Source: Spirogloea muscicola
Taxonomy: Eukaryota > Streptophyta > Zygnematophyceae > Spirogloeales > Spirogloeaceae
Length of the DNA: 25,251 bases
Assembly (NCBI GenBank): GCA_009602725.1
Contig: WELB01000137.1
Location: 329,846 to 355,096, forward strand
Direction of reading: 5' to 3'
The position numbers and the translations under genes were made by a program. Shown piece after piece: positions 18,370-21,671 of the stretch. The notes beneath the pieces were generated by a model. It ran no database searches and had not been told where the DNA came from. It saw only the letters and a list, made by a program, of their open reading frames with translations. Numbering within the stretch: position 1 is the stretch's first letter; the number at the start of each line of letters is the position of its first letter.

Positions 18370-18477
18370 CACGCAGAGTCTAGGGCAAACTAAACAGGGC
18401 TACGTAATACCGGGAAAAAGAGAAAAAGAAGAATGGACAATATCCAAAGCCAAACGGGAAAAAATAGAAAAATTGAA

Positions 18478-18553
18478 GCGCGGCCAGATTGACTGGTGGC
18501 TGGGAAAAGAAGAAAGCGCGGCCAGATTGACTGGTGGCTGGGAAAGGCCAGCC
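18478..18553. repeat. 38-bp tandem duplication
   Basis: A unit beginning GCGCGGCCAGATTGACTGG starts at 18478 and again at 18516. The first 30 bases are identical. The second copy runs into GGCCAGCCCAAAAGAATGG, a hairpin arm and flank of the mini-repeat family. The tract therefore seems to be a duplicated variant of that repeat in the LINE 3' UTR. Confidence 0.8.
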
Positions 18554-20098
18554 CAAAAGAATGGACAAGGTCTGAGGGAGCTTGAGTGCGCACGACTAGG
18601 ACTAAGACATCAGCCAGGGAACGCTCAGTAATCTCTAGACAGGAGATGCAGACCCGAGTAGCTAGCTGGTGGAAAGACGTCGCCCTGACGGAAGCCGGAG
18701 GCCGCCGCCAAAGCTCGGCCTGCGCGCAAGTGAACCGCGAAGGCGAGGGACCGCTGCATCGAGACGGCCAAACGCATACGAAAGAAGAAAGGGCTCGCCC
18801 ATTGAGGATAGGGGCTGGACAAGCCAGCCCAATACGAAACACCTGAGCGAGGGACCCGGCTACGTTGAAGCCGGGCTGCTCGCCCTGCTGCCCGAGGCGG
18901 CGGGCCGCTGCACGCCGCGCTAGGCGGTGGAGCAAGTCAAGCCATTTGGAGCCAAAGGCTCCGTGCACGTCCACTGCCAGTGGAATGAACTCGTCGCCCA
19001 CCGGGTGGTCCGAGTACTTCCGTTTCTTCTCGCCCGCCGCTTGGCCGACTGCGTAGCCCGCCTCCTCCGATAAGCGTTTTGCGCTGCTGGAAACAAAGCT
19101 GTCAGTTGTGACGACGTCTGCAATGAGCCGAGGCCCCCCGCCGAGCGCGCTGGCGACGACGTCGGCGCGTCGGGTGTGGATGCGGCCATCCGCCCCAGTG
19201 GTCGGAGGCATGACGCTGGTGTTCTCGAGTGCCACCGCATAGCCGGCCTCGACAAAGATGCCAAACATGGCATTCCGCAGCAGGTCGTGCGTTCCTGTCC
19301 GCTCCCCGCCCCATGCGCACCTGAGCATGTGAGCTGCCAACCATGCCGCGTCGGAAAACCGCGCTCTCCGCACTCACACTGCTGTACTCCACTGAGGCAG
19401 GGTGGGTGGAGGCCGAGGAGGCGGTGCACCGCCGTACGGAAGGCGTCATCGGGCATTCGGAGTGCGTTGTGGATAGGCAGGGCACACAACCAAGCTGCCG
19501 CCCCTGGTGAGGATGCCGAGAGCAACCGCGCGCGCCCCCGGAGGTCGGCCGATGGCAAAAGCCCCATCGCCGTGGTGAAGGAGGCCGCATCAACCTCTGC
19601 CATGAAGCGAGGTTGGGCCCGGAGGTCGGCCGTGCGCGCGAGGTGCGCGAATGGGACTGCCCGTGGCACCAGGGCGGGGTGATCTGCAAGCAGCGCATCC
19701 CGGGCAGAGCGGAGAGCCGCCTGGAAGGGCAACGTGCCAGTCTCCACGTCCGCTGCCGCCTGCTCCAGAAGGCGACCCCCATGTCGGATGAGACGCTGAG
19801 CCACCGACGACGCAACCTGCGCCCAACTCCCCAGGTGGGCTGCCCCGCAGGCACGAGCAAGCGGACGGCAGCCCAGACCCCCGCGGCTCACAGGCAGGGA
19901 GGCCTGGTGCACGGCAGCCGACGTCGCCAGGAAGGCCGGGTGTTGGACCAGGACCGCTGCGCTGGCGAGGATACCTGCATCAAAGGTTGCATAGGCAGCC
20001 TGCGTCGCCGGGAAGGGGGGGAGGGCTTGCGCCAGGTAAAGGGGACGTTGGGCTATGCTGCGCGTCAGCATGGCGAGCCCTAGCTGCATGTTGCGCAA
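18540..20098 (-). mobile_element. 5'-truncated LINE ORF2: post-RT region, Cys/His motif and endonuclease-like domain
   Basis: On the minus strand, 20098 to about 19375 encodes a post-RT region (LPVSRGGLGCRPLARACGAA, then LPFQAALRSARDALL) ending in CECGE. A one-base frame change near 19370 leads to HMLRC and TGTHDLLRN, making a C-x-C...H-x3-C motif. Next come RRAD and, 14 residues on, IADVV (codons near 19161 and 19118), a PD-x12-14-D type signature of restriction-like endonucleases. The stretch continues KKRKYSDHPVGDEFIPLAVD. The frame is interrupted at 18776-18839 by a mini-repeat insertion, then ends HLRAGRALAAAS...LLSRDY with a stop at 18625. No RT catalytic domain is in the window. RT elements carrying such an endonuclease exist in green algae (Dualen/RandI); the assignment is an inference. 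Confidence 0.8.
18784..18831 (-). repeat. GGGCTGG-hairpin mini-element with 8-bp target-site duplication
   Basis: A 48-bp insert inside the LINE ORF. On the minus strand it starts TGGGCTGGCTTGTCCAGCCC, continues CTATCCTCAATGGGCGAGCC and ends CTTTCTTC. It is flanked by ATACGAAA at 18776-18783 and again at 18832-18839 (plus-strand reading). The inner part folds as GGGCTGG/CCAGCCC with a 5-nt loop, and GGGC-TC-GCCC is a second small hairpin. The insert plus one duplication is 56 bp, which shifts the LINE frame; without them the LINE frame runs on to its normal end. It has no coding capacity. Confidence 0.85.
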
Positions 20099-20183
20099 AG
20101 AAAGAGGTGCCCATAAAGGACTGCACTACCAAACACGACACCGCACTAAGGAAGCTCAGTACCCGCGAGCGAGCAACATCAGG

Positions 20184-20240
20184 TTTTAGGGCTGGCTTTG
20201 CTAGCCCCCCTTCTCACACACGCATTTCCTTCTCTATGCT
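20184..20240 (+). repeat. Hairpin mini-repeat, divergent copy
   Basis: TTTTAGGGCTGGC, TTTGCTAGCCCC, then CTTCTCACACACGCATTTCC and TTCTC. The hairpin arms are kept but the GGGCGAGC box is replaced by an unrelated segment; ACACGCATTTCC also occurs at about 305-316. A variant family member. Confidence 0.5.
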
Positions 20241-20275
20241 AAGCAGTAGCAGGTCAGAGATGCTAGGCTCCTGGA
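20227..20275 (-). mobile_element. LINE ORF2 terminal scrap
   Basis: The minus strand encodes QEPSISDLLLLS, like QEPSISDLRLLSRGY at 20923-20985. It is truncated at its 5' side exactly where the mini-repeat at 20274 begins. Confidence 0.6.
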
Positions 20276-20326
20276 AGAGAAAGTGCCCGCCCATTGAGGA
20301 TAGGGGCTGGAAAAGCCAGCCCAAAA
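20274..20326 (-). repeat. GGGCTGG-hairpin mini-repeat
   Basis: On the minus strand: TTATTCATTTTTGGGCTGG, TTTTCCAGCCCC, TATCCTCAATGGGCGGGCAC, TTTCTCTTC. It is nearly identical to the copies at 18784 and 21284 in the hairpin and middle part. It abuts a LINE scrap. No duplication of the flanks is visible. Confidence 0.8.
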
Positions 20327-20378
20327 ATGAATAAACACTGTGCGAGAAGGAATATTCCGTGTTTTAGAAACAAATGTA

Positions 20379-20896
20379 GGCCAAATGGCTAAGTACAAAG
20401 GCAAGCACATCTAATGATCTAGATAACCTACAGCAGATTGACCCGCTCAATAATCACGGGTCAAAACATGAAGGTCACCAATCGATGCATGAATACTAGA
20501 TGCCAGAAACGGAGCCCTTCTGCCTCCAACTAGAGCTCGCCCAGCTTTCTGGTGCAAGGCACTAGCCTGAGCACGCTGCAAACAGGCCGAAACTCGTCGT
20601 TGCAAGAGCGACAGATATGTAGCTGGCAAGCCCATCTCAGCCGGATATACATCTGCACGTCGAGTGTAGCCTAGATTTGCAGTGTTTTGAAGGAGAGTGT
20701 GAAAACGAGGACCCAGACAGCCAAAGATGTCGATTGCTGCTGGCAGGAGCTGATCGCATTGGGGGTAATCGGAGTAGTGCCGCAGTTTTCTTTGTTCTGC
20801 ACCGCCCACTGCGTGCCCAACGATGTGTTTTGATGCTGGGCCCTTATATGCCTCCGAGAAGGGGGCCAGGGGAAGTGCTAAGATAAACAAGCACAC
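20379..20896 (-). mobile_element. LINE 3' end (ORF2 C-terminus plus 3' UTR), second lineage
   Basis: An open frame ending at 20447 encodes RKLRHYSDYPQCDQLLPAAI, then MGLPATYLSLLQRRVSACLQ, HQKAGRALVGG and DLHVLTRDY. It parallels the KKRKYSDHPVGDEFIPLAVD...HLRAGRALAAAS...LLSRDY order of the LINE at 18.5-20.1 kb, but without the inserted mini-repeat and with clearly diverged sequence. The 3' UTR (TGAGCGGGTCAATCTGC, later TGTGCTTGCCTTTGTACTT) matches those at 1-292 and 21385-21447. It is 5' truncated near 20880. Confidence 0.75.
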
Positions 20897-20922
20897 AAAG
20901 AAACAAAGCAGCTACGAATCAC

Positions 20923-21080
20923 TCAGTAACCCCTGCTAAGCAGCCGCAGATCAGAGATGCTGGGCTCCTGGAAGTGGGTCCCCTGGCCAGAGCCAGAGGC
21001 AGCAGCGAGGGCTCTGCCGGCACGGAGGTGCAGCGCGCGGGCCATAGACCTCTGCAGCGCGACGGCCAAGCGCATGCAGT
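20923..21080 (-). mobile_element. LINE ORF2 C-terminal fragment
   Basis: The minus strand encodes MRLAVALQRSMARALHLRAG, then RALAAASGSGQGTHFQEPS and ISDLRLLSRGY with a stop at 20923. It is close to the end of the LINE at 18.6-18.8 kb. Its 5' limit is a cluster of GGGCGAGC boxes. Confidence 0.75.
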
Positions 21081-21156
21081 ATGGGCGAGCCTCAACGGGC
21101 GAGCCCTTTCTTCTCTCATTTCTCTCTCAGGGCGAGCACTTTCTTCTTTCTACCGA
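21078..21156 (+). repeat. Cluster of three GGGCGAGC boxes with CTTTCTTC tails
   Basis: ATGGGCGAGCC, then AACGGGCGAGCCCTTTCTTC, then AGGGCGAGCACTTTCTTC. These are three copies of the 3' half of the mini-repeat without the GGGCTGG hairpin. They suggest stacked truncated insertions. Confidence 0.65.
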
Positions 21157-21283
21157 GGCCTGCCTGGAGATTTATCAGTCTAGGGGTATTTCTGTGACCG
21201 GCTTTTGTGGCTGGCTTTTCACACCTGGGTGGGCTGGCTGTCTTAGTGCTTGCCCTGGCCCCCTGCTTGTACTTTGTTCATTA

Positions 21284-21334
21284 TTTTTTGGGCTAGCTGT
21301 TCCAGCCCCTATCCTCAATGGGCGAGCCCTTCTC
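21284..21334 (+). repeat. GGGCTGG-hairpin mini-repeat
   Basis: TTTTTTGGGCTAGC, TGTTCCAGCCCC, TATCCTCAATGGGCGAGCCC and TTCTC, preceded by TTTGTTCATTA as in the copy at 444. One mismatch weakens the 5' arm (GGGCTAG). Confidence 0.8.
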
Positions 21335-21353
21335 TAATTTCACCCCCTTTGTC

Positions 21354-21447
21354 TATTAGCGACCTTATGTGTTGACCCATGCTTACTGAGCGGGTCAATT
21401 TGCAGTTGGTGTCTTCGAATGTGCTTGCATTTGTGCTTGGCCATTGT
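21354..21447 (+). mobile_element. LINE 3' terminus (last codons and 3' UTR)
   Basis: AGCGACCTTATGTGTTGACC matches the ORF2 end at 182-201 (AGCGACCTCTATGTGCTGAC). It is followed by TGAGCGGGTCAATTTGCAG and TGTGCTTGCATTTGTGCTTG, the 3' UTR shared by three LINE pieces in the window. Heavily 5' truncated. Confidence 0.65.
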
Positions 21448-21530
21448 AGCTTTTTATTGTTCCAAATATTGGAAACTCTCGTTCAGTAGAGCTGCTTCTT
21501 TCCTGTGGGCGGCTGCTTCAGTCGCGGACT

Positions 21531-21568
21531 GGGGGGGGGGGGGGGGGGGGGGGNGGGGGGGGGGGGGG
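21531..21568 (+). repeat. G homopolymer of about 38 nt containing an N
   Basis: 37 G and one N (21554) in a row. The true length is unknown. The run sits exactly where the GGGCTGG arm of the adjoining mini-repeat copy should be. Confidence 0.9.
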
Positions 21569-21607
21569 TTGTCCAGCCCCTCTTACTCTATGGGCGGAAA
21601 CTTCTCC
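21569..21607 (+). repeat. Mini-repeat remnant after the G run
   Basis: TTGTCCAGCCCC, TCTTACTCTATGGGCGG, AAACTTCTC. This is the 3' arm and box of the hairpin mini-repeat, with the 5' arm replaced by the homopolymer. Confidence 0.6.
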
Positions 21608-21671
21608 GCAGGCCGGTGTGGGGGGTTTCAACCTGAACGTGAAGTATGAGCAGAATATGTGGGGCTGATGG

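Follow-up and report, generated by a model that had tools for sequence, protein, structure and literature searches.

A 48-bp insert interrupts the reading frame of a LINE

The DNA analysed here, a stretch of 25,251 nucleotides from Spirogloea muscicola (hereafter the window), carries on its minus strand a LINE whose reading frame is broken by a 48-bp insert at 18784..18831. The insert, with its sense strand also on the minus strand, is flanked by two perfect 8-bp copies of ATACGAAA at 18776..18783 and 18832..18839 (both unstranded), and the bases adjoining the two copies are unlike (C and A before, G and C after). Given the base composition of the site, the chance of an 8-base match at one given place is about 1.6e-5.

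Upstream of the insertion in the sense direction, the 3' part of the ORF region of the host LINE occupies 18840..20125 (minus strand, more than one frame; the listed ORF ends at 20125), and the end of the ORF with its stop lies downstream at 18625..18783 (minus strand). Translated separately, the upstream flank gives ...NVAGSLAQV as far as base 18840, and the downstream flank, from base 18783 on, gives FRMRLAVS...HLRAGRALAAAS...LLSRDY and the stop. Joined by a single target copy, the two are in the LINE's own frame, which is shifted by the 56 extra bp (the 48-bp insert plus one duplication). A sequence-only reading of this DNA had already described a 48-bp insert between perfect 8-bp copies with unlike neighbouring bases, and a LINE frame broken by 56 bp and restored across the pre-insertion site; the coordinates of the former were confirmed, and the latter was borne out by translation.

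Beyond the insert, the host LINE is damaged, because its ORF passes between frames near 19370 (ORFs 18390-19373 and 18920-20125). No Pfam match was found in the two ORFs of the host LINE in the window. At the DNA level, parts of 19126-20091 showed approximately 67% identity to two longer elements elsewhere in the genome (L109 and L110).

Several other LINE fragments were observed in the window. The intervals 20189-20340 and 20855-21640 contain more LINE 3' ends nested with truncated pieces, on both strands; among them are tails at 20276-20340, at 21272-21336 and, in part only, near 21090-21113. A tail-type hairpin homologous to a LINE 3' end lies on the plus strand at 432-495. Additionally, a long G run with one N (21532-21570), which perhaps marks a sequencing or assembly limit, adjoins a tail-like fragment, TGTCCAGCCC.

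Empty sites in other copies of the host LINE

For the empty-site search, a 601-bp query from the LINE was used, and 40 of 3862 first-look candidates were scored. Among these 40, both LINE halves were present without the 48 bp at 28 places elsewhere in the genome. The two halves overlapped by exactly 8 bases in 19 of the 28 places and by 10 bases in five; the remaining places had overlaps of 3, 4 and 17 bases (one each) or a 4-base gap (one). Eight more places aligned as a single piece that was shorter than the query, by 56 bases in six of the eight and by 55 or 61 bases in the others.

Eight empty junctions (L028-L035) were read, and all eight lacked the insert, indicating that it is no part of the LINE at this place. 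These junctions read CGGAA at the position where both window copies of the duplication read CGAAA, and that the two window copies share the same letter is required by duplication. In the sequence-only reading, finding these 64 bp in all copies of the LINE was named as the outcome that would make the insert part of the LINE itself; the insert was missing from 36 empty places, by which that possibility was ruled out. The earlier view that a real insertion event duplicated 8 bp here is supported by the empty sites and by the window sequence.

In five other copies of the host LINE (L036-L040), tails of various lengths and subtypes were seen inserted no more than about 25 bp from the same ORF position. 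Because the query held both the insertion place and the tail, it selected such copies, and no insertion hotspot is claimed.

The insert is the 3' end of an abundant LINE

A 40-bp core of the insert occurred exactly 596 times in the 153-Mb genome (297 forward and 299 reverse), at many places dispersed over many contigs, and the reversed-pattern control occurred 0 times genome-wide. On the GAAGAAAGGG side, the sequence shared by the printed copies ended about 12 bases or less from the core. On the opposite side, it continued in all 20 inspected copies, mostly as AAAAAAGAATGAACAAAGAACGAGAAGG. When seven long loci were compared (one of them, L025, represented by its second, near-exact copy), the shared stretches were 78-83, 89, 121-122, 204-208 and 276 bp long, all measured from the fixed edge.

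One of the longer copies (L024) continues into an ORF ending in ...AGSLAQVYRMRLAVS...HLRAGRALAAASG...LLSRGY, the same kind of protein end as that of the host LINE in the window. Among the 100 core places listed out of 596, at least four (two on C2, one on C10 and one on C18) lay exactly 102 bp from a LINE ORF match. At least 11 places, among the matches listed, were 99% identical to residues 2-478 of the LINE protein query. The longer copies and the 102-bp spacing to the ORF thus identify the insert as the final 48 nt of the 3' tail of a relative of the host LINE. Its sequence matches the 3' terminus of longer copies without a difference, so that it represents the very end of an element and not a complete one. 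One further LINE protein match, at C111:340983-342398, falls in a 5371-aa open frame that greatly exceeds the LINE ORF in length.

Variable 5' ends and flanking repeats

The 5' ends and flanking repeats were surveyed in 60 of the 100 listed core places (596 counted), with L024, itself among the 60, as the reference. The survey left out seven of the first 67 listed places (C1:1175497 and C2:571498, 571736, 572035, 1176495, 1207306 and 1212852) and the last 33 of the 100. The 5' end lay inside the examined DNA in 50 of the 60 copies, at distances of 40 to 559 bp from the edge of the core, and no obvious spike in length was seen among these 50. One copy (L095) matched the reference across all 940 bases examined. 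Three of the 50 copies end at an N, leaving 47 usable, some with approximate ends at which identity fell to 73-86%; the 13 copies excluded from the repeat count have a 5' junction outside the examined DNA or beside an N.

Exact flanking repeats of at least 5, 6 and 7 bp were found in 22, 16 and 8 of the 47 copies, respectively, compared with 8.05, 2.76 and 1.03 on average, and at most 18, 8 and 5, when the flanks were shuffled 500 times. Many of the 5-6-bp repeats could be chance or purine-run matches. No exact repeat of 5 bp or longer was present in 25 of the 47 copies; junctions that are blunt or carry deletions, wrongly placed 5' ends, or mutation could account for these. The family thus keeps one end constant while its 5' ends vary, and its target repeats are enriched and differ in length, unlike those of a DNA transposon that always duplicates 8 bp.

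A hairpin common to the 3' tails

A tail stem-loop with a 7-bp stem (GGGCTGG/CCAGCCC) and a 5-nt loop lies within the insert at 18812..18830 (minus strand). The hairpin is real but modest (z of -2.1 to -2.6). Of 38 non-redundant tails obtained from 140 places in the window and in loci elsewhere in the genome, 36 (omitting L009 and L097) were aligned together with the host LINE's own divergent tail hairpin, which lies in the stretch 18500..18556 (minus strand). The 37 tails could be aligned on a GGGCTGG/CCAGCCC stem. The stem positions were paired in 92.6% of 258 cells, compared with 39.9-68.6% in slid controls. No covariation was detected among the 37 tails, as shuffles paired at 92.7% and no pair was changed on both sides, so the pairing reflects sequence conservation and not covariation support. 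As a feature conserved in sequence, the 3'-tail stem-loop is common to the copies, and by analogy with LINEs whose protein binds such a structure it is probably the recognition site of the LINE protein.

A second tail type, GGGCTGGC...CAGCCCTTGCCCCCATT...GCCACTTCTT, was found at L022:325-389, L092:893-958, L023:2339-2404 and L096:716-781. It has the same layout as the first type, and different repeat families of this genome therefore appear to share the tail design.

Longer copies encode a reverse transcriptase

At a C10 place with the core at base 61 (L108), an open frame of 688 aa matched RVT_1 (4e-13), and the exact tail was present. Two further elements, L109 and L110, contained open frames of 1350 and 1558 aa with RVT_1 matches of 8.4e-16 and 1.8e-17, respectively, and tails that diverge from the core. 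Longer copies thus encode reverse transcriptase. The ORFs of L108 and L110 were identical at 660 of 667 residues. The L110 tail (L110:190-254) was seen to differ at several bases, even though L110 and L108 share 99% protein identity.

Among solved sequences, only three distinct ones were matched by L109, all of them proteins of R2 retrotransposons (best 7.2e-7). With E values up to 10 considered, Pfam gave no endonuclease domain for L110 or for the ORF of L108, which is shorter. Both proteins have a C-terminal Cys/His cluster followed by RVDLVA...LLLDVVTTD, which we take to resemble the restriction-like endonuclease of R2-type LINEs. In L110, a weak zinc-finger match below the Pfam cut-off was also observed upstream of this cluster.

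Copies as short as the one in the window

Copies of similar length were searched for with a pattern consisting of the tail stem followed by NNB, which spans 29 tail bases and is blind to copies with A as the third base after the stem. It matched 10 places genome-wide, including five longer copies with an altered A run and five hairpin-only copies (the window insert, L082, L104, L105 and L106). Judged by eye, the flanking repeats were 8 bp in the window, 9 bp or more in L082 (TTTGGTAGG, longer if shared bases are counted), 8 bp in L104 (CTCTTAGG) and 7 bp or more in L105 (ACTCCTC or longer); no clear flanking repeat was seen by eye at L106. A truncation hotspot at the base of the hairpin was sought with this pattern and was not seen among the 10 places and five hairpin-only copies.

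Six places (L111-L116, all read) keep the outer tail and diverge where the hairpin begins. Two of them, L114 and L116, contain a stub of about 27 bp without the hairpin, with a repeated 10-bp flank, CTCTAATTTG, and filler bases; their flanks are identical, so they are possibly one event, perhaps later duplicated. Another two, L111 and L112, also with identical flanks, keep remnants of the hairpin and appear internally changed, not truncated, and L115 consists of two tails in tandem. Considering the other hairpin-only copies and the shorter stub, the window insert is among the shortest in a continuous series of lengths.

Origin of the insert

The insert is almost certainly a dead, extremely 5'-truncated copy of the abundant LINE, generated by target-primed reverse transcription and nested in a related LINE. 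This explanation accommodates what was observed, namely the 3'-end identity, the fixed and variable ends, the enriched repeats, the empty sites and the reverse transcriptase domain in a copy with the exact tail. Counting against it are the 25 copies in which no flanking repeat was detected, the absence of a clear repeat at L106, the negative Pfam result for an endonuclease and a stem that shows no compensatory change. In the mechanism that we infer, the LINE protein would have bound the stem-loop at the 3' end of the RNA and then nicked the target. Reverse transcription would have been primed from the nick, by a presumed nick-and-prime chemistry, and may have halted after approximately 48 nt, a little beyond the base of the stem. 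Joining of the second strand would then have produced the 8-bp target duplication. The target was the ORF end of a related LINE copy, the frame of which was broken there.

The perfect 8-bp duplication and the high copy number would also suit a miniature DNA transposon (a hAT-like MITE), and the 8-bp duplication would suit an introner, a mobile element that is removed from transcripts like an intron; PMC9860276 describes one from Aureococcus whose target duplication is 8 bp long. The sequence-only reading had pointed to a tiny non-coding element resembling hAT transposons or introners. That part of it is not supported, because the same 48 bp ends copies of many lengths: the insert is the fixed end of much longer copies, the other end of which is variable, and the length of the flanking repeat is not fixed at 8 bp. 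A terminal inverted repeat was absent from the insert (best 5 of 10 positions), as the same reading had observed, and with a single fixed end and no inverted repeats, a hAT-like MITE is so improbable that we dismiss it. The introner fares equally poorly and is likewise dismissed, since the unit is the end of a LINE and no GT..AG pair was found at the insert ends in nine registers on either strand (canonical pairs only). Overall, the earlier reading was right about a genuine insertion but not about a tiny independent unit; the insert is an incomplete element.

A third alternative is a minimal SINE-like hairpin RNA of about 48 nt, forming a unit of its own and mobilised in trans by the LINE protein. 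The five hairpin-only copies including the window insert, all recovered with one pattern, speak for such a unit. However, they show no excess, being spread over three end positions genome-wide (the pattern misses copies with A as the third base). Among the 60 sampled copies, 11 end in the 20 positions from 56 to 75, which scales to about five per position for 596 copies. Moreover, the stub in L114 and L116 is shorter and has no hairpin. An independent SINE-like RNA is therefore very unlikely, if slightly less so than a MITE or an introner. It is just as unlikely that the 48-nt tail hairpin alone was sufficient in trans for the LINE protein, with hairpin-only RNAs (tail fragments) inserted as unusually small SINE-like retroposons and not as aborted copies of a full LINE RNA.

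Relation to known elements and implications

The truncated LINE copy fits a well-known mechanism, and the finding is ordinary for LINE-type elements. Non-LTR elements are often 5' truncated by incomplete reverse transcription, and target duplication through offset nicks has been described (both in PMC2881922). The family of the insert is like 5'-truncated LINE insertions in its fixed 3' end, variable 5' ends, short and variable target repeats and dispersal. It differs from them in that the insert is very short, with the 3' tail alone copied, and in that the family tail is a stem-loop and not a long poly(A).

LINEs whose protein is obliged to bind a stem-loop in the 3' tail are known, as PMC4176376 describes. 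Stringent-type LINEs (ZfL2-1, ZfL2-2 and UnaL2) resemble the present family in having a stem-loop at the 3' end, here common to the copies and to two tail types, whereas the stem in this family has no compensatory changes and its recognition by the protein is putative. R2-type LINEs are alike as the sole solved structures matched by sequence. R2-type LINEs insert at one ribosomal DNA site, whereas the copies here are found in many places on many contigs. No paper was found in a literature search.

A case resembling a new class of tiny transposon is thereby settled: what looks like a hairpin unit flanked by perfect 8-bp repeats can be no more than the final bases of a LINE. In genome scans, short inserts with duplicated flanks should be compared with LINE 3' ends before MITEs or introners are named. 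As an abundant family with near-identical copies, this LINE would be suited to asking down to what length aborted LINE copies can still become fixed.
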